Shown here one piece after another: positions 216 to 44,561 of a DNA stretch of 44,683 nt. A program made the position numbers and the translations under genes. Position 1 is the first letter of the stretch, and every line of letters starts with the position of its first letter. A model generated the notes under the pieces. It made no database searches, had not been told where the DNA came from, and saw only the letters and a program-made list of their open reading frames with translations. The stretch comes from a virus. The stretch is taken from IMG/VR virus record IMGVR_UViG_3300042384_001249, positions 1-44,683 of that record. One strand, written 5' to 3'.

Positions 216-224
216 GGTGGTGCT

Positions 225-252
225 GGGTTGGGTGCTGGGTTGGTGGGAAGGG
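225..252 (+). repeat. Intergenic G-tract element (representative of an operon-wide repeat)
   Basis: Five GGG tracts separated by TT, TGCT, TTGGT and AA lie between the genes ending at 253 and starting at 215. Read on the mRNA strand this is TAA, CCCTTCCC and then repeated CCCAAC/CCCAGC up to the ATG. Versions occur at 44533-44561, 44218-44236, 43826-43860, 42724-42764 and 42044-42067, with weaker ones at 43519-43546, 43158-43194, 41581-41599, 41214-41225 and 40827-40841. Several satisfy the four-tract G-quadruplex pattern on the template strand. The mRNA version is unstructured, C/A-rich and may act as a translation initiation leader. Confidence 0.75.
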
Positions 253-756
253 TTAGGCGACGTCGTGGTTGAACGCGTCAGAGGAGCGGAAGGCGTGGTC
301 GATCGCGTCGTTGACGGCGTCCTCGACAGCCTCGGCCGGCGATCCGCCGGTGGTGACGCCGGAGGCCATGGCGAGCAGGGCGGCGGCACCGGCCAGCAGG
401 GCGGCACGTTCGCGGACCGGGGCCGCGGCGGCCTTGGTGCGGAGCAGATCGGCGGCGTCGAGCAGGGCGTTGGTCTGCTGGTCGGCGTCGGTGTTGGCGT
501 GCGTGGGGTTGGCGGCGACCGGGATCGCGGCGATCCGCTCGGCCTGCTCGGCCTTGAGGACGTCGAGATCGGCCTGCACGCGGTCGCGGCGGACGATCGT
601 GCGGTCGAGGGCGTCCTTGGCACGGACGTAGTCGCCGGCGTTGATCATCCGCTTGAGGTCGCAGGTGGCCCGGGCGATCGAGCGGTTGATCGTGGCGATC
701 CGCATTTCCGCGAGGGCGATGCAGTTTGCGATCTGGGTGTCGTTGAGGGATTTCAT
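253..756 (-). CDS. First protein of the minus-strand early operon, coiled-coil, unknown
   Basis: This 167-residue protein starts at the ATG 754-756 (MKSLNDTQIANCIALAE...), which follows the leader CCCAACAACCACCGAT; a longer frame beginning at 807 would pass through that leader and is not preferred. Residues about 1-75 form a heptad-rich helical region with many Arg and Asp. The second half is Ala-rich with a hydrophobic helix (LLAGAAALLAMASG, about residues 117-130) that could be a buried helix or a weak membrane segment. It is the promoter-proximal gene of the operon that continues leftwards through the circular join to 40530. Promoter-proximal small genes of phages are often host-takeover proteins, but nothing in the sequence shows its role. 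Confidence 0.7.
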   Translation of the reverse strand: MKSLNDTQIANCIALAEMRIATINRSIARATCDLKRMINAGDYVRAKDALDRTIVRRDRVQADLDVLKAEQAERIAAIPVAANPTHANTDADQQTNALLDAADLLRTKAAAAPVRERAALLAGAAALLAMASGVTTGGSPAEAVEDAVNDAIDHAFRSSDAFNHDVA

Positions 757-818
757 ATCGGTGGTTGTTGGGTTTTTTGGAGGTTGGGTGTCTTGCGACT
801 CAACCAATCAATCAGAAG

Positions 819-847
819 ATCGCGTCCGGCTCAAGGTCTTTTTTCAA
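819..847 (-). promoter_or_regulatory. Possible promoter of the minus-strand operon
   Basis: On the minus strand TTGAAA (847-842) is followed after 17 bases by CGCGAT (824-819), which resembles the CACGAT and CATGAT -10 elements seen at other units. Transcription would begin about 55-60 bases before the ATG at 756. The -10 box is poor, so this is tentative. Confidence 0.3.
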
Positions 848-1255
848 CGATCTTTCTGCCCACCCCAGCCCCGCCACGTTCCCAAGGGTTACGCGTGCGA
901 GCGGGCCAAGGCGATCAGCAGGCCCGCGATCCGGGCCGGCGAGGGGTGGGGCTTTCGCCGGATGGATGACGCACCCGCTCGCGTCATCAACCGGGCGTGC
1001 AGGCCCGCGATCTAACCGCGGGCGGGCAGGCGTGCGTTCAATCGCGTGCCTGCGTGCGTGCGTTCTACCGCGTGCGTGCGTTAGTACGCGGGCGAGCTGG
1101 CGTACGCGTACGCTGACGTGCGTACGCCCAGGCGTGCGACGCACGCTCCCTCCCGCACCCGACACCCCCGCGTACCACCCCCGCGACGACGCCCGCGATT
1201 CGTACACCCCCGCTCGGAAAAATCCGTGTAGGCAAAAAACTTTCTCCTACATTTG

Positions 1256-1275
1256 TGCGGAGATTAATCTCCGCA
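1256..1275. promoter_or_regulatory. 20-bp perfect palindrome, candidate operator
   Basis: TGCGGAGATTAATCTCCGCA is a perfect 20-base palindrome ending ten bases before the -35 box of the fibre promoter. That location suits an activator or repressor site controlling the virion operon. The Cro-like protein at 28933 or the double-HTH protein at 37718 are candidate binders, by inference only. Confidence 0.6.
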
Positions 1276-1285
1276 TCGCCATCTC

Positions 1286-1314
1286 TTGCTTCTATAGGCC
1301 GATTGGTACACTAT
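1286..1314 (+). promoter_or_regulatory. Promoter of fibre/terminase operon, leaderless layout
   Basis: TTGCTT (1286-1291), a 17-base spacer and CACTAT (1309-1314) are followed by CCGGAC and the ATG at 1321. The expected transcription start falls on or next to the A of the ATG. The same CCGGACATG follows the -10 box of rusA at 40001-40015. An alternative -10 is TACACT at 1307. Confidence 0.5.
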
Positions 1315-1320
1315 CCGGAC

Positions 1321-15626: not shown

Positions 15627-17015
15627 ATGGCTGATACCGTAAATGTTCAAGGCGACCCTCTGTGGGGCAAAGGACTTAACAGCATCGCTGGAATGTTCGA
15701 CCCGAAGGCTGAAGCCCAGGGTGCGTCCGTGCTTGCCACCACTCGTTACAACAACGCAAAGGCCGCCGGCGTCGAAGACCAGAACAACGCCTTGAGCGAC
15801 GCATACCTTGCTGCCGCCGGCTATTCCCCGGCAGAGATTGCCGCCGCGCGCGCTACGCGAGACAACTCGCTGGCTTCCTTCGGTAGGGGCATCAATGAGT
15901 TTCGCGGTCGTGAAGCCCTCATCAAGGGCGACACCAAGGTAGCCCTTCCGCTCCTTGGACAGGCAAACGCCTACGATGATTACACCAAGGGCGAAATGGT
16001 CCGCCGTCTTACCACCAACCCGGACGGCACCCTCAATATGACCTTTGCCCCTGCCCTGGCTGCCGGCGTCACCACTAGCGGTGGCGTCATCACCCAGCTT
16101 GGAGAAGACGGCAAGTTCAAGATCATCGACACGACTCCTGCCGGCAAGGTTGACCTGGGTCGAATCAAAACGGATAAGGCGGAGTCTGAAGCCAAGATCA
16201 AACTGATGGGGACGAGGGAAACCAATTTGGGTCGCCTTACGGACGCCCAGATTGCCCTGCTCAAGTCGAAGGGTGTTGCTGTTGAGTATCTTACCGAAGC
16301 AAAGGTCGGCGCCATTGAGAATGCGGCTAATAACGCTACCGCTGAAAGCGAAGCCAGAATCGCCCTTACTAACCTTACTGGCGAAGAACGCACCAGGCTT
16401 ACGAACGCACAGATTGCTCGCCTACAGGGTCTGACTAACACGGACAAGTTGAAGGCCGACGCAGAAGCTGCCCGCGCCAACCTCAACGACCAGGCGAAGC
16501 AACTGACCGTACGCAAGGGGATCGAGGATATCTACGCCAAGGACTTCGCCGAGAACCTTGGAACGGCAAACGCATGGGAGCAGGTAGATCCTGCCCAGAA
16601 GAAGTCCCTCACGGATCGTGCCATGCAGTACATCCTGCGAGACAAGCTGGACGTCATGGCGGCCATGAGGAAGTCCGAGGCTGACCATAAGATTACCGGA
16701 AGCATGGTTAAGGGCAAGAAGGACGTCTTCTGGGGCTTGAAACAGAGCGACAACGGAAAGATCAGCTTTGAAGGATTTACGGTTCCCGAAGCCTTGGCCG
16801 ATGTCGTAGCCAGCGGTGCGGCCCCTACTAGTACGCCCGCCGCCCCTGTCATTGCTCCGGCTGCCGGGGCTGCTCCTGCGGCCGCCGCCGCGCCTGCCGT
16901 AACAGCCGACACCCCTAGGATTACCGACGATGCGGCCGGCCGAGAGGCTTGGGGTAAGCTTGCTCCAGGTACTGTTTATGTTGCTCCAGATGGAAGCGTC
17001 CGTACAAAGGAGTAA
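15627..17015 (+). CDS. Internal virion protein, gp15-position
   Basis: This 462-residue protein sits where T7-type phages encode gp15, the middle component of the ejectosome. It begins NVQGDPLWGKGLNSIAGMFD, is helical throughout the first 390 residues (AADQ/N-rich with KADAEAARANLNDQAKQL), and has a Pro/Ala-rich linker (about residues 395-430, APAAGAAPAAAAAPAV) before a short C-terminal domain ending AWGKLAPGTVYVAPDGSVRT. That last motif is common at the ends of phage virion proteins. The Pro/Ala linker resembles those of the giant protein next to it. TAATG coupling to the next gene, with an AAAGGAG Shine-Dalgarno-like sequence just before. Confidence 0.65.
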   Translation: MADTVNVQGDPLWGKGLNSIAGMFDPKAEAQGASVLATTRYNNAKAAGVEDQNNALSDAYLAAAGYSPAEIAAARATRDNSLASFGRGINEFRGREALIKGDTKVALPLLGQANAYDDYTKGEMVRRLTTNPDGTLNMTFAPALAAGVTTSGGVITQLGEDGKFKIIDTTPAGKVDLGRIKTDKAESEAKIKLMGTRETNLGRLTDAQIALLKSKGVAVEYLTEAKVGAIENAANNATAESEARIALTNLTGEERTRLTNAQIARLQGLTNTDKLKADAEAARANLNDQAKQLTVRKGIEDIYAKDFAENLGTANAWEQVDPAQKKSLTDRAMQYILRDKLDVMAAMRKSEADHKITGSMVKGKKDVFWGLKQSDNGKISFEGFTVPEALADVVASGAAPTSTPAAPVIAPAAGAAPAAAAAPAVTADTPRITDDAAGREAWGKLAPGTVYVAPDGSVRTKE

Positions 17016-20000
17016 TGAGCAATTTCTGGGAAAACGACAAGCCAGTACAGCCCAAGCAAGACACCAAACCGAAAGTTAACTTTTGGGAGCAGGACAAGCC
17101 TGCCGACGTCCCTGCCCCTGTCGTAACCCAGCAGCCTGTAGTCCAGGTCGAGACGCAGGCGCCGGTCGTCGCCGCTCCGTCGGTCGCCGATGCGTTCAAA
17201 CTGGCGACGCCGAACGATCCTCAACTGACAGCCCCTGGGGCAGGCGTGTTGCTCCCCCAGCCGCAGATGCGAGGCGTCGGCGGTGGTGTACGCCAACTCG
17301 GCCAGTCCCTTAACGCGGACGCTCCGGTCGTCGGACAATGGGAAAGCCTGTTCAACTCCGCTTTGTCGTCCTGGTACGGCAAAGACATGGCTGCGGCGGA
17401 GAACAACTTCTTCAACCTGGTATCCAGAGAGTCTGAACTGGTTGAAAAAATTACCAACTTCACGCCAATGGGTTACGACCTTCCTGGCCCTCTGCCTCCT
17501 GGTGCGCCGGAATCAGCCCGACAAACAGTAAAGAATCAAGACGTGAAGGCGCTTGAAAAATTGAAGCAGGAACTTGTCGAAGTCCGCGCAAAAATCCCGC
17601 TCGCAAAGGCGGAGAAGGACGAGATGGAAAAGACGATGGCTGGCATTGCCGGCCGAACCGAAGACGTTCTGCGATTCCAGAAGGCAGCCAACGCCCAAGA
17701 CATCGGCGGAGCTGCTCGCGTACTGAAGGGAGACTACGGAACGAATTCCGCAGAAGTCGCCATTAACATGGCTTTGGAATCCGCATGGCCTAGCCTCAAG
17801 AGTGCAGGCATCGACGTCGGCAAGGCCGGCGTCACCTACGCGACTGGCGGAGCAGCCGCTCCTTGGGTTTATGGTGGCGGTATTGCCGCCCAAGGCGGTA
17901 TGGCCGGACGAGACGCCTACGTCGGCAACGCATCGCAGAATTTCAAGGAATGGCTTCAGACCCAGGGCGTTGACGCGGATGACGAAGCAGCCGTCATCGC
18001 CCTTCGCAACAAAGACCCGAAGGCTTTCAACCAGGCTTTGTCTGACGCGAAGCAAATCGCCCTTGCAGCCGCCGGCGCCGAAGGTGCGGTGACTGGTGGC
18101 TTCAGCATGATCCCAGGCGCTGGAAGCATCAAGGCTATCGGTAAGAATAAGGGCGTTCAATGGGTCATCAAGAATGGCGTACCTCTGCTCATCGAGGCTG
18201 CCAAAGAAGGTGCCGAAGAAGCTGTCGTCAGCGCGGCGTCACAGGGTGCTGGCATTGCCGCTGGATCGAAGAAGCCGTTCAGCATGACCGACGTAGCCTT
18301 CGCCGGTACTGGTGGCTTCTTGGCCGGCGGCGCAAGCGACGTTGGCATGAAGGCTGGTGGTGGCGTCTTTAAGGCTGGGTGGAAGGCTGCTAGTGGGAAC
18401 AAGCCTGCCGCCCCTGTTGCTCCTGCCCCTGGTGCGACCCAGCCTCCGCCTGCTGCTCCGGCTCCAGCAGCCGGTGGCGCCGCCGCCGCTCCTGCAACCA
18501 ATGTTGCCGGCGAAGTCGTCCCTCCCGCCCCCGCCGCCGCTACCGCCGCCCCGGCTGCTCCCGCCGCCGCTGCTGCTGCCGCTCCGGCCGCACCAGCTGC
18601 CGCTCCTGCCGCTCCGACCGTCGATCCTACCATCGCCCTCCAGGAGCAACTGAATTCAGCCAATGAGCGACTGTCTAAAGCCCAGGCAAACGAAGCCCAG
18701 GCAAACTTTGACTTTGAGGCTGCCAAGGCGGCATTGGATGACGATCCGGAAAACCAAGAAAAACAGGCCGCACTAAATGCCGCATCGAATGCGGTCGTTG
18801 CTGCTCTTGCCGAACAAGGCAAAGCATACGGAGATATCTCTTCGCTAACCCAGCAGCTTGAGGAAGCTTCAGCTGCTTATAACGAAGCGCAGAAGAACGC
18901 CCCTCCCGCCCCTGCCGCCCCTGCCGCACCTGCCGCACCTGCCGCTCCTGCCGCCCCTGCCGCTCCTGCCGCCGCCCCTGCCGCAGCTCCGGCCGCCAAC
19001 GCCCAGCCGAAGAACGTACTGGAGCAGAGGTTTGATGAACTTAACGAGAAGATCCGTTTCATCAAAGCAGAGTTGACCAGAAAGAAGGCCGAGGTTGACG
19101 CCGCCGCCAAGGCCGGCCGGCCGAACGCTGAAGGCCGCGCCAGCGTCCAGCGTCTTGAGAAAAGCCTGTCCGACGCCGAAGGTACGTTGAAGGATCTGAA
19201 GGATCGCAACGCTCCCAGGTCTGAACTTCCCGCTCCCCAGAAGGAAAAGACTCCGGAAGAGAATCTAGCACAGAAGAAGGCAGAACTAGACGCGATTAAT
19301 CGACAGCTCGACCAGGCTTACCGAAGCCAGCGAGACGTCGATGGCGAACGCATTGCGTTGCTTGAGGCTGAACAGGAACGTATCTCGGAAGAATACGAAG
19401 TCGCACGCGCTGCCGTCGAAGGTAACGCGACAGCGTCCGCTCCGGATACTACTCCTCCCGCCGGCACCGACGGATCGGCTGCATCAAATAATGAACCGCA
19501 AGGCGTCAAGGACGCCCGCGCGCAACTCAAGAAGATGGAAGACTCCGGTCGTGCCGGCAGTCGCCAGGCCAAGCTTCGACGAAAGTATATCCGCGAGTGG
19601 GAAAGGAAGAATGGTCTTCCCTACAGCGTCGAACTTGAAGCCCCGAAGCCGGCAAAGCCTGCCCCGGTTGCGAAGCCTGCTGCCCCTGTCGCGGACGTAC
19701 CGCCGGCTGATGCTCCTGCTGCTGACGCACCTGCCGCACCGGTCGTAGCTACTGCTGCCCCCGCTGCCGCTGCTCCAGCCGCAGCCCCTGCTGCTCCGGT
19801 CGTAGCTGCTGACGCCCCTGCCGCAGCCCCTGTCGCCAAGGCTGACGCTGGAGCAGCTCCGGCAGCCACCACTACTACCGCCCCTGCCCCGAAGCCGAAG
19901 TCTGACCTGGTTACCGGCCTACGCGGTGCAGCTGCCGCCCTCGCCGGCCGCGAGCGTTCCAACGCCCCCGCCCCGACCGTAGCCCCCTCCGGCAATGTCA

Positions 20001-26000: not shown

Positions 26001-26341
26001 TCCTGGACGCAGCTTCCTACGCCGGCATGTTCGGCAAGAAGTTTGAATACCTGTCCCGCATGGTCATCCGTAAGCAGGTGCCTATGGGTCCGATTCCGGA
26101 AGCCGCAGGGAAGGCTATCATCGCCGCGTCTACCGCCATTGAAAAGGGTGGTGACTCCGATCGTGCTAACTACAACGCGTTGAAGTCAGTCCAGCGGACC
26201 GGCTTGAATCCGGCCGTGGTTGGTGCCGCTTCGGCATTCAACCCTGTTGTGGGTGCCGGGGCTAACTACCTCATGCGCGACCGAGACTACAGCGACGCGA
26301 TCCTTGAGGGTCTGACTGGCACCACTAAACCCAAGAAGTAA
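17015..26341 (+). CDS. Giant multidomain ejected virion protein (polyvalent, gp16-like C-terminus)
   Basis: This 3,108-residue protein fills 21% of the genome. Order: two FWENDKP/FWEQDKP motifs (residues 3-30); a Gly/Ala-rich, possibly membrane-active region (250-450); three Pro/Ala-rich linkers (about 463-540, 628-665, 882-992) separated by coiled coils; an HhH-GPD-like domain (about 1386-1620) with ALLAALSPQTSVEANLENTL and SGPKVNSFSMNL, followed by VTADAW carrying a possible catalytic Asp; a GNAT-like domain (about 1673-1826) with RRGFEAVARVAFDEKFAPEN; long coiled coils to about 2200; then a core (2225-3108) with YFPRIWSSKLI (about 2432), FMDWANFVVVSGYLGLSYIN (about 2655) and a hydrophobic segment near 2953-2982, as in large ejected proteins. 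It is likely packaged and injected with DNA. No lysozyme or transglycosylase motif was found in it. Domain names are motif-level calls. Confidence 0.75.
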   Translation: MSNFWENDKPVQPKQDTKPKVNFWEQDKPADVPAPVVTQQPVVQVETQAPVVAAPSVADAFKLATPNDPQLTAPGAGVLLPQPQMRGVGGGVRQLGQSLNADAPVVGQWESLFNSALSSWYGKDMAAAENNFFNLVSRESELVEKITNFTPMGYDLPGPLPPGAPESARQTVKNQDVKALEKLKQELVEVRAKIPLAKAEKDEMEKTMAGIAGRTEDVLRFQKAANAQDIGGAARVLKGDYGTNSAEVAINMALESAWPSLKSAGIDVGKAGVTYATGGAAAPWVYGGGIAAQGGMAGRDAYVGNASQNFKEWLQTQGVDADDEAAVIALRNKDPKAFNQALSDAKQIALAAAGAEGAVTGGFSMIPGAGSIKAIGKNKGVQWVIKNGVPLLIEAAKEGAEEAVVSAASQGAGIAAGSKKPFSMTDVAFAGTGGFLAGGASDVGMKAGGGVFKAGWKAASGNKPAAPVAPAPGATQPPPAAPAPAAGGAAAAPATNVAGEVVPPAPAAATAAPAAPAAAAAAAPAAPAAAPAAPTVDPTIALQEQLNSANERLSKAQANEAQANFDFEAAKAALDDDPENQEKQAALNAASNAVVAALAEQGKAYGDISSLTQQLEEASAAYNEAQKNAPPAPAAPAAPAAPAAPAAPAAPAAAPAAAPAANAQPKNVLEQRFDELNEKIRFIKAELTRKKAEVDAAAKAGRPNAEGRASVQRLEKSLSDAEGTLKDLKDRNAPRSELPAPQKEKTPEENLAQKKAELDAINRQLDQAYRSQRDVDGERIALLEAEQERISEEYEVARAAVEGNATASAPDTTPPAGTDGSAASNNEPQGVKDARAQLKKMEDSGRAGSRQAKLRRKYIREWERKNGLPYSVELEAPKPAKPAPVAKPAAPVADVPPADAPAADAPAAPVVATAAPAAAAPAAAPAAPVVAADAPAAAPVAKADAGAAPAATTTTAPAPKPKSDLVTGLRGAAAALAGRERSNAPAPTVAPSGNVNASDPRNDRRYAGLRQLLRSAINVAHNKIINDEKAREKLIQEGRSTRNLDDRIAQNKEKIERILSGQPAVKPNTPVDPNVAPIDPMAADQQYDYDDTPATPEQLSILDKLDAAGDEAIALGRKEIEEGRSGAGRGALGGQSLSGRINIGVGYGYKFAAKLGKKANLKNKAAALAEFVKMFGESSEIYFDAAYETAKKLLGKNYFETTNNINKDVISKADADLAASRPEASTAREVEASYVREAGVFALRNLDKKAKNKEAASDSAFKKWMDTDPFGDAPQYVKDNARAIWDKAVALGGRNEAEVTTNVMRDVTGRDVDDGKMSKEEKAKMDALRAKIESPSLRRHFDDALSGLTPEERARIKSNTATGLAEATAALPNVDQTAAAAAAGKAKKKWYWRSAEAIKLIFGKDRHRFAALLAALSPQTSVEANLENTLRVWRTWVNEGRPTDEASILRIMGKSVIGDKGEDSVLDAWKNNSIRALSSTEPENLTISGPKVNSFSMNLRHIFTAVTADAWMANWAYVDQAIFGGGINAAGTDPGKGMGYLAMTSLCRRAAEKLTMETGQSWTPDQVQETVWSWAKTVLEKAVAEGKTVQEVVSQGLVNDNDIASTPDFATLFTDDPKYRQLLEESGYADQLKQLDEKRVQGQEQRGTASDGGAGSGGERKVRELGGSNPSTPGIRVLENTPENRKLFADLVSKLQAGNPRGAQVTAKTADEYEGHTMVIAFDGEAVGSISPEGETTSLVARPDARPEAVQVLFQAAIDTGRVKFCSCFDTILPESYARRGFEAVARVAFDEKFAPENWDTETYERFNNAKPDIIFMRFVGDNARPHSEVRANLPVLDYAAAEDAAKRGISAEQAASEKQSRAEEKFKPELKESIDRLERERISRKISAADTQLKKMIETLKSLNKAIKKAKSEGNTELMNELEKQAEKTREQIKSRESKNEKQVERELKELRNQPAENTETKADAGQQASEAGSDATVKGWADTVARAQRDKPESAMLDAQKVVKGGAANYAIEHIGDILHRVYQRLAQSGDDPSFGFNGVKNKVENALKNLIGDNITTEADFWAKEKEQHGMEVASGKPGVPSWEQRKQEITDKMKRFSEEHAALPAENDLQATVKGINVALGNLDFQAAIDGLNKLKQKLDSQESWRNYAKEVGTNTENKAGEKAQSTSQEPRESREAAKVRIELEEAAKGDPATLGERIKNALDAWELDSLGPDDKPNARAFSFGPNELAAWGYRIAKLIAKTGMKFASWAKSMAGKMNKQNMKDIWQIAKAIVRFPGAIAKHFLDSRADKLWEYANKRKDSAAMRKLANLIFTRSGPDADAEITTTGPDGKPVTEAVRNSIPQRIKQIRTQYANKYANMLNRFGTEFANMTEAQRKAWDKEFRRAVIGLDPLPPGEKGKAVLEFRQMMKELLDYQREAGIDIGDSGTGYFPRIWSSKLIQENIQKFYQVAKEMYKKRDQRLLDKAIADINAGVDQNAADKKARDKKYGRKIKTDAEYQQEARDDADEKIAALQAAHDAKDEAHYQSMAESWALRAQTGRLDEVTLNDNGINQANAPDHADPRMFTDEEASLADEFQDDDIDKTVIRYVHAAVKKSELARVFGEKGDKFGKMLEQLQKDGFSEEEIKHIAKLTRQSLDVTSNKLEGFEAKFMDWANFVVVSGYLGLSYINNLFLEPVSYGIRTGSPALALEAVVRTWHQFGRELLRSVNDSNFIRRKYKNRKEFARSMDMALAETLGLTHVELDRIAADSHWDFNADMEESGSPLAKWLTQRVLKANFMEQSERAKVAASMAIAKGHLSNVARTFNGNSFLQEVFSKAGVDVTAEAAAKSMLREAGVADADHAAFVAFVTSLQAMSDSDYEAAVMGNSREAKMYRQALQRTSTGMAISTDPSMKTEGSDSIFGKMLMQLMNYSYAYSQLVKDRMYDSALGAFKRSTPTEQINAMDRVKYLMPLVAGGSMTVIASIATKALVASVFPSDSGDEWMEKDPAIQFLDAASYAGMFGKKFEYLSRMVIRKQVPMGPIPEAAGKAIIAASTAIEKGGDSDRANYNALKSVQRTGLNPAVVGAASAFNPVVGAGANYLMRDRDYSDAILEGLTGTTKPKK

Positions 26342-26399
26342 CGAATCAGTTGACGAATGTTGGGTGTTGTGGGAGGATGATCTCGCAATGCCCAACATT
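26342..26399 (+). promoter_or_regulatory. Inverted repeat and possible promoter at the DUF1599-like start
   Basis: AATGTTGGG (26357-26365) and CCCAACATT (26391-26399) are perfect inverted repeats that bracket the ATG at 26388, so a hairpin could hide the start codon. TTGACG (26350) and GATGAT (26376-26381, six bases before the ATG) resemble other promoters here, but the 20-base spacer is long. Confidence 0.4.
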
Positions 26400-28845: not shown

Positions 28846-28932
28846 GGTACCAGAAAAAGCATAGTAAAAACAAAGTCGTGATTGACGACCCTACACCCAG
28901 TAGGCACAACCCTATCCATCGGACCCAACACC
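28846..28932 (+). promoter_or_regulatory. Promoter/operator region before the Cro-like gene
   Basis: GTAGGGT (28842-28848) and ACCCTAC (28888-28894) form a 7-bp inverted repeat. TTGACG (28882-28887), a 17-base spacer and CACAAC (28905-28910) would give a transcript whose short leader contains CCCAACACC right before the GTG at 28933. An ATAGTAA at 28860-28866 recalls the -10 region before 7033. The region probably separates lysis from replication transcription. Confidence 0.35.
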
Positions 28933-29220
28933 GTGGACATCAAACTCGACATTAAAAAGCTGGTCGCCTACTTCGGCGGTCGCATCAATCTCTGGCGCAA
29001 ACTCAATGCCGCCGGCTACGCCCTCTCGATCAAGACCATCGAGAAGTGGTCGGAACGAGACAGCCTCCCGGCCCACCGCATCGTCCAACTTATGGACCTT
29101 GCCAAGAAGGACGGACGTGTCCTTGATCTTAACTCTTTCCTGCTTAACTCCGCACCCAACGCCGAGAAGAAGCTTTCCCCCAACACCGATGAAAAACAAA
29201 AAGTCCGCAGCAGCCGTTAA
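28933..29220 (+). CDS. Cro/CI-like DNA-binding regulator
   Basis: The 95-residue protein carries an HTH: INLWRKLNAAGYALSIKTIE then KWSERDSLPAHRIVQLMDLA, like Cro/CI family regulators. The GTG at 28933 was chosen because the bases before it are CCCAACACC, the same leader found before ATGs in the replication block. It lies first in the replication transcription unit and overlaps the next gene by 32 bases. It could repress its own promoter or the virion promoters, where palindromes lie (for instance 1256-1275). Confidence 0.65.
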   Translation: MDIKLDIKKLVAYFGGRINLWRKLNAAGYALSIKTIEKWSERDSLPAHRIVQLMDLAKKDGRVLDLNSFLLNSAPNAEKKLSPNTDEKQKVRSSR

Positions 29221-29635: not shown

Positions 29636-29649
29636 TCTCCCCCAACACC

Positions 29650-31125: not shown

Positions 31126-31141
31126 TCGGATCCCATCCAGG

Positions 31142-31201
31142 CGTCCCTTGATTAAGTTGCTGACAAATCTGAATAACATGTCAGCATCTTATCAAGGGAC
31201 G
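31142..31201 (+). terminator. Long imperfect inverted repeat after the SSB-like gene
   Basis: A 24-base left arm (31142-31165) pairs with a 23-base right arm (31179-31201) with only one bulge and one mismatch, around a 13-base loop. T-rich sequence follows (31202-31219, TTTGTCCTTTTGCTC). It is A/T-richer than its surroundings. It could be a strong terminator, an RNA-processing site or an initiation hairpin. It lies 16 bases after the SSB-like stop. Confidence 0.6.
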
Positions 31202-31449
31202 TTTGTCCTTTTGCTCTTTAAAACACAGGGTGAGAGTGGGACGACAACCCGGCCGTCGGTCCGGACACTTACGTCTACGCTCGCAGCGGTGACGCAGATG
31301 TTGGGTTTGCCTCTCCCGCCGCCCCCCTCTTTCCGCTCTAGCGGGAAACTACAACGGCTCCCTCCTCTGCCGAAAGGTACGAGGGAGTCTTCCCTTTCGA
31401 CCGATCGGCCCTCTCGACGATGGTTTCTCTCGGTCGGTTTTCTTTCCCG
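31202..31449 (+). other. Structured leader before the helicase gene, possible attenuator
   Basis: This 248-base gap contains no credible gene. After a T-rich stretch the RNA can fold into at least three local hairpins: TTTCCGC/GCGGGAAA near 31330-31348; CTCCCTC (31358-31364) with GAGGGAG (31381-31387), enclosing a small GCC-GAAA-GGT stem; and CGACCGA (31398-31404) with TCGGTCG (31430-31436) followed by GTTTTCTTT, then the ATG 13 bases on. A hairpin with a T-run directly before a start codon suggests an attenuator controlling the helicase, but the base pairing is by eye only. Confidence 0.45.
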
Positions 31450-33105: not shown

Positions 33106-33115
33106 TCCCAACAAC

Positions 33116-33895: not shown

Positions 33896-33904
33896 TTTCC
33901 CAAC

Positions 33905-34767: not shown

Positions 34768-34799
34768 GCCGCCCAACGCCCAGGAATAACAGACCCAAC

Positions 34800-37252: not shown

Positions 37253-37283
37253 GCGGTCAGCTTCGGTGTCCCAACCCACCGAT

Positions 37284-37721
37284 ATGCTTTCAACCCTAGC
37301 CTTCATCGCCGCATCGATCGCTCCTGTCCCAGAGAAATGGGTGGACGCAGTCGAGCAGGTCGAATCCTCCGGACGCGGAGCCGACACCCCCCGGGGTGAC
37401 ACCGGCCGGGCCAGAGGACCATTCCAATTCTGGCACGCCGCTTGGCTGGACTGTTCCGACATCCGCCGGCAGGCCGGCCTTCCCACCTACCCATACAGGC
37501 TTGCGTCTGATCCGGTGATCGCACGCCAGTACGCCCGCACATGGCTGGCCTACCTCCGGTCAAGGGTGTCGAGGCGACTAGGCCGCCCCGCCGACGCCGG
37601 CGAGACTTGGCTTGCCTTCAACCTTGGCATGTCGGGCTTCGGTTCCTATGGATACAACATCCAGAAGGTGCCAGACCGCAAATTCATGAAGGCCAACCTA
37701 ATCAATATCAATGTCCGATGA
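37284..37721 (+). CDS. Lysozyme/transglycosylase-like endolysin candidate
   Basis: The 145-residue protein starts after GTCCCAACCCACCGAT with a short hydrophobic stretch (MLSTLAFIAASIAPVP) that could be a signal or signal-anchor. Then WVDAVEQVESSGRG supplies a Glu in the position of the catalytic acid of lysozyme-like transglycosylases, followed by GRARGPFQFWHAAWLDCSD, the GPFQF motif of the fold, and LAFNLGMSGFGSYGYN late. It is probably the cell-wall hydrolase that the holin lets through, though it is 9 kb from the holin in the replication half. A virion-associated muralytic role is possible. Confidence 0.7.
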   Translation: MLSTLAFIAASIAPVPEKWVDAVEQVESSGRGADTPRGDTGRARGPFQFWHAAWLDCSDIRRQAGLPTYPYRLASDPVIARQYARTWLAYLRSRVSRRLGRPADAGETWLAFNLGMSGFGSYGYNIQKVPDRKFMKANLININVR

Positions 37722-38152: not shown

Positions 38153-38672
38153 AGACCAATGGAAGGGCGGACTGGTCATCCGCCACGACGTCGATCCGGT
38201 GCTGACTCAACAGCAGGAAGCCTTCGTCGCGGCCTACGTCGCCAACGGCGGCAACGCCGTGCAGGCCGGCAAGACGGCCGGCTTCGCCGACGGCAACTCC
38301 CAGTTGTCTTCGCATAAGGTCCGCGAGGCGATCGAGCTGAAGCGAGACATGGACATCAAGACCGGCGGTGCCACCATGGCATGGCAGGTCATGCAGTCCC
38401 TGCTCACCGATCCGGCCGCACCTCCCCAGGTCCGGTTCCAAGCCGCCCGGTGGACGCTGGAGGCATCCGGACATGGACTGTCGGCGATCGCCGCCGCGAT
38501 CCACCTAGGCAACCGGAATAAGAAGGACCAGCATGAGATGTCCGTGTCCGAGCTAGTCGAGCTAGTCGATAAGGGCCGGAAGCAATTGGAATCCATGAAG
38601 CAGGTCGCCAACGAACTGAAGTCCGTCGAGGACGCCATCATTCTCCCACCCAACACACCCAACCATGAGTAA
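38133..38672 (+). CDS. terS: Terminase small subunit
   Basis: The 179-residue protein has the small-terminase HTH start LTQQQEAFVAAYVANGGNAV then QAGKTAGFADGNSQLSSHKV, and a helical oligomerisation region ending at NHE. The ATG at 38133 was selected because the upstream frame is a shadow. It should bind the packaging site. It is about 33 kb away from the large subunit on the linear map, although the circle brings them to about 10 kb apart. Confidence 0.8.
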   Translation: MPKQNDKDQWKGGLVIRHDVDPVLTQQQEAFVAAYVANGGNAVQAGKTAGFADGNSQLSSHKVREAIELKRDMDIKTGGATMAWQVMQSLLTDPAAPPQVRFQAARWTLEASGHGLSAIAAAIHLGNRNKKDQHEMSVSELVELVDKGRKQLESMKQVANELKSVEDAIILPPNTPNHE

Positions 38673-39588: not shown

Positions 39589-40012
39589 GGGCTACATGCC
39601 TGCCCTGTACCCGGGCGGATCGAGGAGCAGGGCAAGGCATGGCACGAAGTGCCAACCCTCCAGCATGTGGGAGAAAAGGCGGGGATGAGGAAGGGGTTTA
39701 GCTACCCCCCTTTCCCCGCTTCCTCGCGGCGTCGAGGATACTAGGTTAAGTCGTTGTTTGATATAGGGTTAACCCTGTTGCACCCCCCCTTCCTCGGTGG
39801 TTTTACGAAAACGCACACCCCCCTTCCTCGTCCATAAGTCACTACACGCACGCCACTTACGCATGGTCGAGGAAGCGAGGATCGCCCTGTATTAAGACTA
39901 ATAGGCCATCCTCGGGCTTTGGCCCTATCCCGATGGGGAAGGGCGTCGCCTCGCTGTCCCTATAGTCGAGGGGAAGGGTTGACCCAACAACGCGACACCC
40001 CATGATCCGGAC
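39589..40012. other. Hairpin and iteron region, candidate origin or regulatory RNA
   Basis: No convincing gene. A 13-bp hairpin with one bulge forms from 39595-39607 and 39628-39641, followed by TGGCAC-GAA-GTGCCA (39640-39654) and a larger one from GAGGAAG (39687-39693) with CTTCCTC (39719-39725). CTTCCTCG occurs three times on this strand (39719, 39789, 39823) and inverted once (39868), two copies behind runs of Cs. AGGGTTAACCCT (39765-39776) is a perfect 12-bp palindrome. The right end holds the rusA promoter. Iterons with a palindrome suggest an origin; the hairpins could equally be transcription stops. Confidence 0.5.
39979..40006 (+). promoter_or_regulatory. Promoter of rusA, leaderless layout
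   Basis: TTGACC (39979-39984), a 16-base spacer and CATGAT (40001-40006), then CCGGAC and ATG at 40013. The CCGGACATG is identical to that of the fibre promoter at 1315-1323. The upstream ATG at 40002 is out of frame. Confidence 0.5.
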
Positions 40013-40459
40013 ATGGACGACATCGTCATGCTCAACATCGAAGGCACCCCCAGGCCGCAACCTAGGCCGAGGCTGTGCAAGGGCAGGATCGTCTCGACCG
40101 CAGACGCCAACGCACGCAGGTGGAAGGACATGATCCGGCAGGCCGGGAAGATGGCCGCCGATGCACATGGGCAGATCGCGACGTCGGCCGTCGCCGTCGT
40201 CATGCGGTTCGACATGCCAACCCCCAAGGCAGACCGGCATGGCCGGCCGCATACCTTCAGACCAGACGCCGACAACCTAGCTAAACTTGCGCTGGATGCA
40301 GTCAAGGACGCCGGCCTGCTCAAGGACGACGCGGCCGTCTCGACCCTAGTGGTGACCAAGACGTGGGCAGGGAAGGGCGGGCTGGTCATGACCCTGCACG
40401 ACGACGACCGCACCCCTTCACCGGTGCCGGCCGATCGGTTCCCGGACTGGATCAAGTAA
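40013..40459 (+). CDS. rusA: RusA-type Holliday junction resolvase
   Basis: The 148-residue protein has the RusA pattern FRPDADNLAKLALDAVKDAG followed by LLKDDAAVS, with the four Asp (about 85, 87, 105, 106) that coordinate metal, plus a basic start GTPRPQPRPRLCKGR. It cuts four-way junctions and would resolve branched or concatemeric replication products before packaging. It is a single-gene transcription unit, bounded by its own promoter and a hairpin after the stop. Confidence 0.85.
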   Translation: MDDIVMLNIEGTPRPQPRPRLCKGRIVSTADANARRWKDMIRQAGKMAADAHGQIATSAVAVVMRFDMPTPKADRHGRPHTFRPDADNLAKLALDAVKDAGLLKDDAAVSTLVVTKTWAGKGGLVMTLHDDDRTPSPVPADRFPDWIK

Positions 40460-40466
40460 ATGAGAA

Positions 40467-40488
40467 GGCCCGCCGGTGAGGGCGGGCC
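40467..40488. terminator. Hairpin between convergent rusA and the minus-strand operon
   Basis: GGCCCGCC (40467-40474), a 6-base loop and GGCGGGCC (40481-40488) form an 8-bp G/C stem at the convergent junction. There is no T-run, so it may be a weak or bidirectional stop. A second small stem, GGCCG-TGG-CGGCC, lies at 40507-40519. Confidence 0.5.
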
Positions 40489-40529
40489 GATAGACCTATC
40501 TGGCTGGGCCGTGGCGGCCGGCGGACAGG

Positions 40530-40826
40530 CTACCCCATGCCGGCGGCCTGGCCCTTGATCGTCGCGACCCAATGGCCGGTGCCGTCGTGCGTCCAGCCGT
40601 CCACGTCGATGTCGTCCGGGTGAAGACCGCCCGGGTAGGGCAGGCCGTTAAGGGACTGCTTGGCCGCCGACTGGTGGTTGTCGTGGATGCCGTACTGGTG
40701 GAGCCAAGACTGGAACCGGCGGTGCTTCGATCCGTCCGCCTTGAGGTGGATGGTGACGAGGATCCGGGAGCCGCGGGCATCCGTCGGTCCGCGGTACTTG
40801 GTGGTGATGATGGCGAGCATAGTCAT
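40530..40826 (-). CDS. Conserved small protein of the RGSRI type
   Basis: The 98-residue product reads MTMLAIITTKYRGPTDARGS then RILVTIHLKADGS and GWTHDGTGHWVATIKGQ. The ITTKYxGPTxxRGSRI start recalls small conserved phage and bacterial proteins of unknown role. It is the last gene of the minus-strand operon and follows the leader CCAACACC. No catalytic motif seen. Confidence 0.65.
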   Translation of the reverse strand: MTMLAIITTKYRGPTDARGSRILVTIHLKADGSKHRRFQSWLHQYGIHDNHQSAAKQSLNGLPYPGGLHPDDIDVDGWTHDGTGHWVATIKGQAAGMG

Positions 40827-40841
40827 GGTGTTGGTGCTGGG

Positions 40842-41225: not shown

Positions 41226-41345
41226 TTAGAGGTTGGGGTTGTCGATGATCTCGAGCAGGTCCGGCCCGGTCGCGAACGCCCAGAGGGCGAAGGCGATGAG
41301 GGCCGCGAGGGCGAGGGCGAACAGGATGGTGCGGATGGTGGACAT
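41226..41345 (-). CDS. Small single-pass membrane protein
   Basis: The 39-residue product (MSTIRTILFALALAALIAFA, then LWAFATGPDLLEIIDNPNL) has one strong membrane helix and a short acidic tail. Its ATG is one base after the stop of the gene upstream (TAACATG), with no leader. It may act at the inner membrane, for instance in superinfection exclusion or signalling; that is a guess. Confidence 0.55.
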   Translation of the reverse strand: MSTIRTILFALALAALIAFALWAFATGPDLLEIIDNPNL

Positions 41346-41346
41346 G

Positions 41347-41580
41347 TTACTTGGTCCGCTTGAGGTTAAGCTTGGCCGCGGCCTTGGCCTGCTTGAGGTG
41401 GCAGTAGACCTGCTCCGGCGTCGCGGCGTGCGTCGCGGTGATCACCTCGTCGGCCCGCACCATGGCGAGCAGGGTGGGCGACGAGGGCCAGCGGCCATGC
41501 GTGGCTTCGTACTTGCACGCGTCCAGCAGGCTGGACAGGGCGTCGATGGCGGCGGCGTGGGTGATGGGGGATTGGCTCAT
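41347..41580 (-). CDS. Small helical protein, unknown
   Basis: The 77-residue protein (MSQSPITHAAAIDALSSLLD...) is helical, with a Lys-rich end (HLKQAKAAAKLNLKRTK). The leader ends ACCCAACATG. One base separates it from the next gene. Unknown. Confidence 0.6.
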   Translation of the reverse strand: MSQSPITHAAAIDALSSLLDACKYEATHGRWPSSPTLLAMVRADEVITATHAATPEQVYCHLKQAKAAAKLNLKRTK

Positions 41581-41599
41581 GTTGGGTATGGGTGAGGGG

Positions 41600-42037
41600 T
41601 TACTTGGTGACGTCGTGCAGGATGTCGGTGGACCAATTGCATGCCCACTCCTCGACGCTGTCGCCGATCACGTCGCCGATCCGGTCCTCGATCTCCTGCA
41701 TGACCATGCCCTCGGCCTGCCCGACCGAGCCGGCTTCGACGACGAACCTGGCGATGATCTCGAACGAGACAGTCCAGCGGCCGATGTCTTCGCCGTCGCA
41801 CTCGGGGCCGTTGTCCTCGATGGACTGGGCGATGACGTCGAAGCGATCGGCGAGAGCCGCGAGGCTCTTGTCGGTGGACGCCTTGGCCGTGCGGCAGGTG
41901 GCCCGCTTGGCGATCAGTCCGTCGAGTTCCTCGCGGGTATTCTTGAGGGCGGACGTCGCGGTCATGTAGCCCTTGCCGGTGTCCTCATAACGATCGATGA
42001 GGAAGCGGACGAGGACGGCGTGGGTGGTGTCTTTCAT
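41600..42037 (-). CDS. Early operon protein, unknown
   Basis: The 145-residue protein (MKDTTHAVLVRFLIDRYEDT...) has an N-terminal amphipathic helix, a coiled-coil-like middle (SALKNTREELDGLIAKRATC) and an acidic C-terminal half (MVMQEIEDRIGDVIGDSVEE). Leader: CCCAACCCAACACCCAACACC. Not recognised. Confidence 0.6.
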   Translation of the reverse strand: MKDTTHAVLVRFLIDRYEDTGKGYMTATSALKNTREELDGLIAKRATCRTAKASTDKSLAALADRFDVIAQSIEDNGPECDGEDIGRWTVSFEIIARFVVEAGSVGQAEGMVMQEIEDRIGDVIGDSVEEWACNWSTDILHDVTK

Positions 42038-42043
42038 GGTGTT

Positions 42044-42067
42044 GGGTGTTGGGTTGGGGGTGAAGGG
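42044..42067 (+). repeat. Intergenic G-tract element
   Basis: Four G tracts with loops TGTT, TT and TGAA satisfy the canonical G-quadruplex pattern. The mRNA strand carries CCCAACCCAACAC before the ATG at 42037. Same family as 225-252. Confidence 0.7.
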
Positions 42068-42388
42068 TTAGAGGGCGATCTCGTACTGGGTGCCGGCGAC
42101 GGCCGGCTTGGTGGTGATGAAGTAGCCGATCCGGTTGACGATGCGGTAGGCTTCGACGACGTACTGTCCTTCGTCGCCTTCGACCAGCGTCCAGACCCGG
42201 AGGTGGGAGTGCTTGCCGTGGGCGTGGATCAGCACGTCAACGAGGTCCGACCCGAACGTCTCAAACATGGTGCCGTCGAAGGCGGAGCCGGGGGTGGCGG
42301 TGTTCACGATCGGCTTGAACTTTTCGACCCAGTCGTCGAAGGACATGGTGATGAAGGCGGGCGTGGCGGGCTTGGTGGATTTGCTCAT
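42068..42388 (-). CDS. Early operon protein, unknown
   Basis: The 106-residue protein (MSKSTKPATPAFITMSFDDW...) looks like a compact alpha/beta fold: FDDWVEKFKPIVNTAT, then MFETFGSDLVDVLIHAHGKH and LRVWTLVEGDEGQYVVEAYR. The long shadow frame through 43345 is rejected because it runs across three other leaders. The leader also contains a direct repeat GGACAT(A)CCTCCA at about 42403-42437. Unknown. Confidence 0.6.
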   Translation of the reverse strand: MSKSTKPATPAFITMSFDDWVEKFKPIVNTATPGSAFDGTMFETFGSDLVDVLIHAHGKHSHLRVWTLVEGDEGQYVVEAYRIVNRIGYFITTKPAVAGTQYEIAL

Positions 42389-42441
42389 GGTGTTGGGTTG
42401 GTAGATGGAGGTATGTCCTACAGATTGGAGGATGTCCAGAT

Positions 42442-42723
42442 TTATTTTTGGCCGGCCTCGATCGAGGCAAGGGCGTCTTCCCGGGCGTCGGCCTTTTGCT
42501 TCGCGGCGTGGATCGCGTCCATCGCGGCGTGGCACGCACGCTGGGCGTCGAAGATCGCCTTGCGTACGGCGATCGCGTCCTTCCGGGCGTCGGTCGCCTC
42601 GATGGTGTTGAAGACGAGGGCGTAGCCGGCCTCCTCGGCCCGGTTGGACGCCATGACGAGGGTGGCGGTGGCGTTGAGGGCGGCGGCGTAGTCCGCCGGG
42701 CTTGCGTTGTGGGGGTGGATCAT
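42442..42723 (-). CDS. Ala-rich helical protein, unknown
   Basis: The 93-residue product (MIHPHNASPADYAAALNATA...) is helical, with FDAQRACHAAMDAIHAAKQK near the end. Leader: CCCAGCACCCAACCCACCACC. Resembles other Ala-rich members of the operon in composition only. Confidence 0.6.
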   Translation of the reverse strand: MIHPHNASPADYAAALNATATLVMASNRAEEAGYALVFNTIEATDARKDAIAVRKAIFDAQRACHAAMDAIHAAKQKADAREDALASIEAGQK

Positions 42724-42764
42724 GGTGGTGGGTTGGGTGCTGGGTTGGTGGTGGGGTGGAAGGG

Positions 42765-43157
42765 TTAGGATCGGAAGCGGGCGAGGGCGTCGGCCATGGC
42801 CGGCTTGGGGTTGTAGTCCGGGAGGACGCGGGCGAGGATGTTGAGGTCGATGAGGATGCCCGGCTCGTCGAACATGCGACGCTTGACGTAGTCGTCGCCG
42901 GTCGCCTCGCACGCGGCGAGGAACTTTTGCCAGACGTCGAGATCGCGGTGCATGCCGACGCGGATGTCGTCGAGCTGACCGGCCTCGGCTTCCTTGGTGA
43001 CGAAGGTGAGCCAAGCCTCGGCACGCTCGGCCTCGGATCGGGCCTTGTCGGCGTCTCGCTTGGCCGCCGCGAGGGTGGCGAGGGTGGCGTCGGCGACGGC
43101 CTTCCGGATGAAGGCGACGTCGATGCCGGCGATGGTGGTGGTGGGGGTGTTGGACAT
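42765..43157 (-). CDS. Helical protein, unknown
   Basis: The 130-residue protein (MSNTPTTTIAGIDVAFIRKA...) is strongly helical with KRDADKARSEAERAEAWLTF as a coiled-coil stretch and a C-terminal ILIDLNILARVLPDYNPKPA. Leader AGCGCAAACTCAAC. Unknown. Confidence 0.6.
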   Translation of the reverse strand: MSNTPTTTIAGIDVAFIRKAVADATLATLAAAKRDADKARSEAERAEAWLTFVTKEAEAGQLDDIRVGMHRDLDVWQKFLAACEATGDDYVKRRMFDEPGILIDLNILARVLPDYNPKPAMADALARFRS

Positions 43158-43194
43158 GTTGAGTTTGCGCTGGTGGTGGTGGCTGGGTGAAGGG

Positions 43195-43518
43195 TTAGGC
43201 ACGGACGTGGGTGATCGGGACCATGCGGATCGTCCGCTGGTTGAAGGCGAGCAGGGCGGCCATGGCGTCCTGCCGGCAACCCTCCGCCTCTTCGCGTTGG
43301 GTGATCGAGCCGTACCGGTCGGCGTCGAGGACGCGACGCTGGCACAGGGTGACGTGCGACTCGAGCATGGCACGCTCGGCGGCGTTGGACTGGGCGATGG
43401 ACCTGGCGATGCCGTCGGCGGTGGCGTTGGACGCCGGCGTGCCGATGGCCCGGAGGGCGGCGATCTCCGCCTTCGCGGCGGCGTGCTGGTGGGGGGTCAT
43501 GATCATGGGGTTGGACAT
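43195..43518 (-). CDS. Ala-rich helical protein, unknown
   Basis: The 107-residue product (MSNPMIMTPHQHAAAKAEIA...) is helical with AIAQ/AERAMLESHVTLCQRRVL heptads and a more basic tail. Leader TAATCTCCACCACCAACCC. Unknown, probably part of the Ala-rich family of this operon. Confidence 0.6.
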   Translation of the reverse strand: MSNPMIMTPHQHAAAKAEIAALRAIGTPASNATADGIARSIAQSNAAERAMLESHVTLCQRRVLDADRYGSITQREEAEGCRQDAMAALLAFNQRTIRMVPITHVRA

Positions 43519-43546
43519 GTTGGTGGTGCTGGGTTGGTGGTGGAGA

Positions 43547-43819
43547 TTAGCGGCGGGGCATGGCGGCGGACGCGGCGATCGCGACGCCCATGTGATGCTC
43601 CGGCGTGCGGCTGGAGGAGTACGGATCGATCGCGGTGAGGACGCTGGTCAAGAGGGCCGACGCCACCCGGAGGGCGGCGGCGTCCTGCTTGGACAGGCCG
43701 AGGTGGCCGGCGTCCGCTTCCATGTCGCGGATGTTGCGGCCGGCGTTGTCGAGGCCGCGGATGACGTCGCGGATGTTGTCGTCGGTGATGGTGGTGATGG
43801 CGATCATGTGGTTGTGCAT
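43547..43819 (-). CDS. Small helical protein, unknown
   Basis: The 90-residue protein (MHNHMIAITTITDDNIRDVI...) has an acidic N-terminal half (RGLDNAGRNIRDMEADAGHL) and an Ala-rich helix (ALRVASALLTSVLTAIDPYS). It starts after a leader that contains six G tracts on the other strand (43826-43860). Unknown. Confidence 0.6.
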   Translation of the reverse strand: MHNHMIAITTITDDNIRDVIRGLDNAGRNIRDMEADAGHLGLSKQDAAALRVASALLTSVLTAIDPYSSSRTPEHHMGVAIAASAAMPRR

Positions 43820-43825
43820 GGTGTT

Positions 43826-43860
43826 GGGTGCTGGGTGTTGGGTTGGGTTAGGGGGAAGGG
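43826..43860 (+). repeat. Intergenic G-tract element, longest copy
   Basis: Six G tracts, the longest of five, with loops of two to four bases. Canonical G-quadruplex pattern. On the mRNA strand it is a run of CCCAAC and CCCAGC. Same family as 225-252. Confidence 0.7.
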
Positions 43861-44208
43861 TTAGCGGGCGAGCATGGCGTGGTGGACGTGCATCCAGCCG
43901 GCCTCGGGGCAACAGCAGGTCGCCTCGTCGAGCAGGTCGATCAGATCGTCGCCGGTGATGGGGGACTGGGTGTCGCAGTCAACGCCCTCGACGACGACGA
44001 CGTAGGTCGCGGCGATGTGCCACTCGTTGACCCGGGTGACGGAGCCGACGGTGATGTCGTGGACGATCACGTCGTCATGCTCGATCTCGAGGCCGGCGAT
44101 GTCGTCGAGCAGGGCGGCTCGCTTGAGGGCGGTGGGGGTGATGTCGTGGCCGTTGTCCCGGGCGAGCAGGACGGTGAAGACGACGGTGGTGGTGGTGGGC
44201 TTGCTCAT
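43861..44208 (-). CDS. Early operon protein, unknown
   Basis: The 115-residue protein (MSKPTTTTVVFTVLLARDNG...) looks beta-rich: VVFTVLLARDNGHDITPTAL, then VIVHDITVGSVTRVNEWHI and TYVVVVEGVDCDTQSPITG. ATCCCPEAGW near its end has three consecutive Cys, possibly metal-binding. Unknown. Confidence 0.6.
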   Translation of the reverse strand: MSKPTTTTVVFTVLLARDNGHDITPTALKRAALLDDIAGLEIEHDDVIVHDITVGSVTRVNEWHIAATYVVVVEGVDCDTQSPITGDDLIDLLDEATCCCPEAGWMHVHHAMLAR

Positions 44209-44217
44209 GGTGGTGCT

Positions 44218-44236
44218 GGGTTGGGTTGGGTTGGGG
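44218..44236 (+). repeat. Intergenic G-tract element, perfect copy
   Basis: GGGTTGGGTTGGGTTGGGG: four tracts with three two-base loops, the most regular G-quadruplex motif in the window. Located on the template strand between the genes starting at 44208 and ending at 44242. Confidence 0.75.
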
Positions 44237-44241
44237 AAGGG

Positions 44242-44526
44242 TTAGGCGATCTTGACGAGGGCGTCGTTGGCCTCGAGGACGAGCCGGGTGAGCCGGCGGC
44301 GATCGGCGAAGGTAAGGTGGGCCTGCTCTACCAGACCGGCGGCGATCCGGGTGGCCTGCCGGGCTTCGTCGATCGCGTCCTGCTGGGCCTTGAGGGCCGC
44401 GAGGATGGTCAGCACGGCGATCTGGTCGGCGTCGCCGAGGCACCCGATCTGGTGGTCGGTGATGGAGCCGGGGCCGGTGATCATGGCGATCGCTTCGGCG
44501 AGGGTGGTGGGGGAGGGCTTGGACAT
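44242..44526 (-). CDS. Helical small protein, unknown
   Basis: The 94-residue protein (MSKPSPTTLAEAIAMITGPG...) has helices IAVLTILAALKAQQDAIDEA and RRRLTRLVLEANDALVKIA. Its start MSKP resembles that of the product starting at 44208. Unknown. Confidence 0.6.
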   Translation of the reverse strand: MSKPSPTTLAEAIAMITGPGSITDHQIGCLGDADQIAVLTILAALKAQQDAIDEARQATRIAAGLVEQAHLTFADRRRLTRLVLEANDALVKIA

Positions 44527-44532
44527 GGTCGT

Positions 44533-44561
44533 GGGTGTTGGGTTGGGTTGGGTGGGAAGGG
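44533..44561 (+). repeat. Intergenic G-tract element
   Basis: Six GGG tracts with loops TGTT, TT, TT, T and AA between the genes starting at 44526 and ending at 44562. Canonical G-quadruplex pattern. Confidence 0.75.

Follow-up and report, generated by a model that had tools for sequence, protein, structure and literature searches.

What do the short C/A-rich leaders that precede start codons across an uncultured phage genome do, and is there a molecule that recognizes them? The question is raised by an IMG/VR virus record of 44,683 bases, analysed over its whole length (hereafter the window), for which an earlier note had proposed that a CCCAAC element acts as a genome-specific translation start signal. 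The first 127 bases of the window are identical to its last 127, which points to a circular assembly of about 44.56 kb. A cluster of small minus-strand genes occupies 40.5-44.5 kb and continues past the join as far as position 756; these genes are called ‘early’ here as in the earlier note, an assignment that gene order suggests. No tRNA was found in the window, and its main landmarks are as follows.

3285: terminase gene
4902: portal gene
8068: major capsid gene
29650: Sak4-like protein gene
near 31420/31450: helicase gene
33116: Cas4-like exonuclease gene
34800: primase/helicase gene

The leader at start codons

Genes and their starts in the window were called from codon usage alone, with no use of the motif. 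The leaders found in front of these starts are listed below.

216-251, minus: leader of gene 6-215, CCCTTCCCACCAACCCAGCACCCAACCCAGCACCACC
757-795, minus: leader of gene 253-756, two CCCAAC plus ACCGAT adjoining the ATG
44527-44561, minus: leader of gene 44242-44526, three tandem CCCAAC
44209-44241, minus: leader of gene 43861-44208, three tandem CCCAAC plus CCCAGC
43820-43860, minus: leader of gene 43547-43819, three CCCAAC plus CCCAGC
43519-43546, minus: leader of gene 43195-43518, CCCAGC variant
43158-43194, minus: leader of gene 42765-43157, C/A-rich with the CCCAGC variant
42724-42764, minus: leader of gene 42442-42723, CCCAGC plus CCCAAC
42389-42441, minus: leader of gene 42068-42388, CCCAACACC-ATG
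42038-42067, minus: leader of gene 41600-42037, three CCCAAC
41581-41599, minus: leader of gene 41347-41580, CCCAAC abutting the ATG
40827-40841, minus: leader of gene 40530-40826, CCCAGCACCAACACC
28924-28932, plus: CCCAACACC upstream of the GTG at 28933
29179-29188, plus: CCCAACACCG upstream of the ATG at 29189, within the 3′ end of the preceding gene
29636-29649, plus: leader of the Sak4-like gene, motif conserved in relatives
33107-33115, plus: CCCAACAAC upstream of the Cas4-like exonuclease gene
33899-33904, plus: CCCAAC abutting the ATG at 33905
34794-34799, plus: CCCAAC abutting the ATG at 34800 (primase/helicase gene)
37270-37283, plus: CCCAACCCACCGAT upstream of the ATG at 37284, holding both leader motifs
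38649-38664, plus: CCCAACACACCCAACC upstream of the ATG at 38665

CCCAAC or CCCAGC lies within 40 nt upstream of all 13 minus-strand genes; CCCAAC itself is present at 10 of these 13 starts, at 9 of 18 replication-module starts and, in agreement with the remark that virion genes mostly lack it, at none of the 20 virion starts. The accompanying description of a full TAA-CCCTTCCC spacer before the minus-strand genes is too general, as that spacer is found only before some of them (those at 43819, 44208, 44526 and 215), the remainder having CCCTTCA, CCCTTCCA, TCTCC or another pyrimidine stretch instead. At each of the eight plus-strand sites that had been singled out (28933, 29189, 29650, 33116, 33905, 34800, 37284 and 38665), the start selected from codon usage has CCCAAC 0-8 nt upstream. 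This includes the ambiguous GTG at 28933, where codon usage alone picks the same start, with CCCAAC just upstream.

These counts exceed those obtained in 300 dinucleotide shuffles of the same 40-nt upstream regions, with 19 CCCAAC in the minus cluster (shuffle mean 4.6, maximum 10) and 12 in the replication module (mean 1.5, maximum 6). Equal density in coding sequence would speak against a start signal, and in the minus cluster the densities are 36.5 per kb upstream vs 0.23 per kb in coding sequence; coding-sequence density is 0.2-0.7 per kb, and the whole window holds 52 CCCAAC vs 25.7 expected. Neither the reverse complement, GTTGGG, nor AGGAG occurs upstream of the early and replication genes of the window. 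Shine-Dalgarno (SD)-like strings are indeed as rare as had been stated: they precede one of 13 genes in the minus cluster, with no enrichment, and in the replication module they occur at the density of coding sequence, so a test of SD initiation gave no enrichment over coding sequence for genes with the leader.

Folding energy over positions -30 to +33 is -3.5 kcal/mol for leader genes vs -12.3 kcal/mol for virion genes, and the unpaired probability around the start is 0.77 vs 0.55; such a nearly unstructured leader is what SD-free initiation would be expected to have. A promoter or terminator reading of the leader was ruled out by its distance of 0-4 nt to many starts and by its use within gene clusters.

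To place the leader in a wider setting, 93 related loci were fetched, with more added later. The leader is shared by dozens of relatives in IMG/VR, which form a family of uncultured freshwater phages, and was therefore wrongly described as genome-specific; the other part of that proposal, a translation start signal, is supported by the association with starts, the strand, the unstructured context and the conservation. Orthologous starts retain the motif while the flanks vary (for the Sak4-like gene, TAATCTCCCCCAACACC, TAATCTCCCAACCCAACCAC and TAATTTCCACCCAACCAAATAACC), in phages of 46-64% GC. In the main group of relatives (group A), CCCAAC is the top upstream hexamer (278 vs 9.8 expected, 967 genes) and reaches 26 times expectation in the leaders. 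Its single-base neighbours are mostly enriched 1-6 times, the exceptions being CCTAAC, CCAAAC and CCCAAA at 11-16 times with small counts. The distance of CCCAAC from the start has peaks at 0 and 3 nt in this group, with 36 copies at distance 0, where ACCGAC is also found 16 times (0.43 expected). The more distant groups B and C have AACCGAC adjoining the start in place of CCCAAC, and group D, the most distant, has A/C-rich leaders with neither motif.

A structured RNA whose loops complement the leaders

The hexamer GTTGGG does occur in a non-coding stretch between the ssb-like gene and the helicase gene, where it is part of a structured RNA. This RNA, which belongs with the leader, is absent from the earlier note.

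31209-31332, plus: conserved structured ‘anti-leader RNA’, a three-way junction with two hairpin arms, in the interval between the ssb-like gene and the helicase gene (cmsearch 129.8 bits)
31253-31260, plus: apical loop 1, CCGUCGGU, of which the CGUCGGU part is invariant; complements ACCGAC
31299-31305, plus: apical loop 2, UGUUGGG, invariant in 20 aligned lineages; complements CCCAACA exactly

The comparison covered 56 distinct intergenic regions, of which 40 were aligned, and the consensus structure was derived from 20 lineages. Relatives with CCCAAC leaders have GTTGGG at the same place and in a hairpin, the stem of which varies while the loop is constant (GCGAC-UGUUGGG-GUCGC, GCUUC-UGUUGGG-GAAGC, GUGAC-UGUUGGG-GUCAC and GCAGA-UGUUGGG-UUUGC). 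In the 20 lineages, 21 of the 25 consensus pairs have compensatory changes on both sides and 98.6% of cells are paired, the covariation score being 0.72 vs 0.02-0.14 in slid controls. Searches with a covariance model detect the RNA across the whole main group, with weak matches in groups B and C; no Rfam family matched the window or its relatives at or above the gathering score. The helicase start follows the RNA closely in many relatives, and the RNA could thus be merely a cis-acting 5′ UTR of that gene, the leader of which has no CCCAAC in the window. It may be a separate transcript, a processed helicase 5′ UTR or both.

The match between loops and leaders was examined by scanning each hexamer of the window RNA for complementarity to the 599 distinct leaders of its group. 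The scan peaks at loop 2, with a match in 137 of the 599 leaders vs 8.8 expected (z=43), hexamers that overlap loop 2 give 20-28 and other positions at most 14. Among the leaders of the window alone, CCCAAC, the complement of loop 2, is present in 18 of 47 (0.45 expected). In group B the RNA lacks loop 2 and retains GUCGGUU, that is loop 1, and it is at loop 1 that the scan of this group peaks (12-14 of 93 leaders vs 0.5-0.9 expected). More generally, strong enrichment of CCCAACA is confined to lineages with UGUUGGG as loop 2 (53 of 570 leaders vs 1.8 expected in the main loop-2 group, 0-1 in other groups), AACCGAC is enriched only in lineages that have loop 1 (GUCGGUU), and both are near background in lineages where no RNA was found. 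In groups C1-C4, loop 1 (GUCGGUU) likewise matches enriched AACCGA/AACCGAC leaders. The second loop of group C1, UUGGUUGG, matches AACCAA leaders, which is weak evidence because AACCAA is also raised in group D, where the RNA is missing. Loop 1 is invariant in the main group, yet its complement is only mildly enriched there overall (25 vs 11.7), the enrichment being concentrated at distance 0 from the start. This correspondence across lineages is the main argument that leaders and loops may pair, although the relatedness of the phages means that few independent changes lie behind it.

A predicted duplex with loop 2 at -8 or better is obtained for 12 of 13 early, 8 of 18 replication and 2 of 20 virion starts. 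Even when loop 2 is permuted, its pairing with the C-rich early leaders is fairly good, at -7.9 vs -10.0 kcal/mol.

Proposed repression by a phage RNA and competing explanations

Judged from sequence comparison, the leader probably serves as an SD-independent initiation region and is, in addition, targeted by a GcvB-like RNA which the phage encodes and which most likely represses translation of the early genes; a probability of about 0.6 is assigned to this reading. Specifically, a C/A-rich, unstructured leader would initiate translation without SD at early and replication genes, and its motifs would be the targets of one phage RNA, UGUUGGG pairing with CCCAACA and CGUCGGU with ACCGAC. The resulting duplex would lie 0-20 nt from the start codon and block access of the 30S subunit, and an RNA acting in trans in the manner of GcvB would turn down early and replication genes together. 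The timing may be that of a switch to the virion genes, which would escape as they have no leader. Repression, as exerted by GcvB on CA-rich enhancers, is the likelier sign because a duplex directly next to the start codon should keep the 30S subunit out. GcvB has a GU-rich segment that pairs with CA-rich elements in or beside many ribosome binding sites, and such an element itself enhances translation, which the GU-rich sRNA silences (PMC3879156). The likeness lies in a phage RNA loop that complements CA-rich elements at many starts. However, GcvB is chromosomal, has an unstructured pairing region and acts on elements beside an SD, whereas the phage RNA is encoded by the phage, presents hairpin loops of 7-8 nt and faces SD-free leaders; no homology to GcvB was found by Rfam at the gathering score in the window and its relatives.

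An unlikely alternative is that the phage exaggerates a host-type initiation region that is simply generic, C/A-rich, unstructured and free of SD, and that the match of the leader to the loop is incidental. Such leaders do exist in a Prosthecobacter genome (a MAG picked for holding a tandem leader match), in which SD is absent and leaders are C-rich: AACCCA, CAACCC, CCAACC and CCCTTC are enriched upstream of its genes, more weakly than in the phage, and in a further 400 kb, with 279 genes, AACCCA was found 12 times (1.0 expected), CCAACC 12 times (1.2) and CCCTTC 12 times (1.9). This enrichment was not clearly seen in the other Verrucomicrobiota sampled, and the anti-SD of the Verrucomicrobiota 16S examined is normal. 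The strong lack of structure in the phage leaders is also in keeping with a generic region, as are C-rich non-SD sites that function in vitro (PMC3310771) and the A/C-rich leaders of phages without the RNA. Indeed, AACCAA is present in 11 of 72 leaders of RNA-less lineages (1.5 expected), and C/A-rich leaders in such lineages suggest that the leader has a role independent of the RNA. Against an incidental match, the one hexamer enriched 26 times is the complement of an invariant apical loop, and group B differs in motif and, correspondingly, in loop.

The same correspondence, the missing SD and the tandem copies upstream of many early genes would also fit a positive role of the RNA, in which it would act as an activator or external anti-Shine-Dalgarno and recruit the leaders to the ribosome by pairing with them. 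This is distinctly improbable, since the motifs often abut the start, with the 36 CCCAAC and 16 ACCGAC at distance 0 where a duplex should block the 30S subunit, their spacing is loose, and leaders persist in lineages that have no RNA.

Direct pairing of the leader with the 16S rRNA segment GAUGUUGGGUUAAG (E. coli 1082-1093, h36/h37) appears very improbable. Pairing with 16S h36/h37 has reportedly been proposed for the tuf leader of Mycoplasma genitalium, Verrucomicrobiota 16S has AGAUGUUGGGUUAAG once, which fits CCCAAC, and some Cas4 leaders (UUAACCCAACAU, in L008 and L021) complement the 16S site over 12 nt. GUCGGU, the partner that ACCGAC would need, is however absent from the 16S examined, extension past the hexamer is not generally enriched, and the GUUGGG at this site presumably lies within the h37 stem, which also counts against such pairing.

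A DNA-level element, either stoperator-like sites for a phage regulator or a G-quadruplex/i-motif in the tandem repeats, for which the four template-strand G-runs of (CCCAA)n upstream of some early genes might speak, can be given hardly any weight, as the motif is in gene sense only (GTTGGG being absent upstream of early and replication genes), is often 0-4 nt from the start codon, is single-copy at most replication-module sites and corresponds to loops of a covarying RNA.

A bolder, tentative reading, given somewhat less than even odds, is a family-wide translation-control code with a dedicated leader on most early and replication genes, in which one RNA, with loops co-evolving with the leader, would switch a whole gene class on or off; it may possibly reach host genes with similar leaders as well. 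If true, a phage would control an entire temporal class of genes at translation with one RNA and a shared, co-evolving leader, which would add a new layer to early/late control. The leader would also be an initiation signal that occurs in nature, needs no SD and has a defined sequence, it could guide the annotation of start codons in uncultured phages, and leader and RNA together would make a compact two-part regulator open to reporter tests.

Known relatives of the leader and a possible host

The earlier statement that no initiation signal of this form had been described was too strong: the leader is of a known kind, SD-free, C/A-rich and start-associated, and C-rich non-SD sites (PMC3310771), CA-rich enhancers (PMC3879156) and the SAS elements (PMC3203893) are on record. 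SAS/ESAS motifs precede the starts of non-structural genes in cluster K mycobacteriophages, and an RNA or protein partner was left open, none being reported (PMC3203893). SAS resembles the leader in being short, asymmetric and repeated, in lying a few nt ahead of start codons in the orientation of the gene, in its restriction to non-structural genes and in its conservation within a phage group; its consensus, GGGATAGGAGCCC, has an SD core, whereas the CCCAAC leader has none and does not match that consensus. In vitro selection has yielded C-rich ribosome-binding sites without SD, which are inefficient in E. coli; pairing with a G-rich 16S segment was proposed for them, and C-rich 5′ UTRs in some phages were pointed out (PMC3310771). 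They share with the leader its C-richness and initiation without SD, but they are products of selection, whereas the leader is natural, of defined sequence and accompanied by a cognate phage RNA. SD-scarce bacteria (Bacteroidota and some Verrucomicrobiota) have genes without SD and an intact anti-SD, and the available part of that account describes no specific CCCAAC leader or phage RNA (PMC10783764). A phage RNA with loops complementary to leaders appears to be undescribed.

No isolate phage is closely related, identity reaching at most 50% for TerL and MCP and at most 48% for Sak4, and the structured RNA was not found in isolate phages. Searching 85k genomes with the Sak4-like protein gave no relative. 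In 388 Verrucomicrobiota genomes, no MCP and no match to the RNA covariance model were found, and phage DNA gave only short or low-identity matches, none of which was taken as a prophage or spacer. Tetranucleotide correlation made no single host stand out, and the ratio of CCCAACN{0,6}ATG to its reversed control proved a poor guide to the host, several high-ratio genomes using SD. A Verrucomicrobiota host is plausible, because the leaders of the Prosthecobacter genome are C-rich, lack SD and are enriched in the same strings. A search with the tandem leader found one further contig with CCCAAC leaders, L336; the RNA model has no match in its 22 kb, and the contig may be a fragment.

The RNA loop and its surroundings

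Apical loop 2 (UGUUGGG, 31299-31305) of the conserved structured RNA at 31209-31332 (+) is the complement of CCCAACA in the leader, the C/A-rich CCCAAC element preceding most early and replication gene starts. In the window's sub-lineage, this loop with its flanks (31296-31308 (+), AGATGTTGGGTT) shares a 12-nt identity with the h36/h37 segment of 16S rRNA (E. coli 1082-1093), an unlikely rival candidate for pairing with the leader, but in other relatives the flanks differ, and the identity is therefore probably due to chance.

Two further stretches were noted:
31137-31195 (+), long hairpin (dyad TGCTGACA...TGTCAGCA) directly 3′ of the ssb-like gene and 5′ of the RNA, retained in many relatives; a putative terminator or operator
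26355-26377 (+), G/U-rich GTTGGGTGTTGTGGG, 5′ of the gene at 26388 and likewise complementary to the leader

A further contig with leaders

In a contig retrieved via its tandem leader (IMGVR_UViG_3300032239_001098), small genes in a minus-strand cluster carry CCCAAC leaders, with G making up only 3% of the sequence upstream of these genes. No similarity between this contig and the window was found, and a search of its 22 kb with the RNA model returned no match.

Record ends and other regions

An identical 127-bp repeat occupies both record ends (1-127 and 44557-44683), resembling that of a circular assembly, and one gene, 6-215 (-), spans their join.

Elsewhere in the window:
17015-26341 (+), one ORF encoding 3108 aa and filling a fifth of the genome; by its position, a putative tail or virion protein
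39600-40500, rich in G/C runs and weakly coding, separating convergent gene clusters
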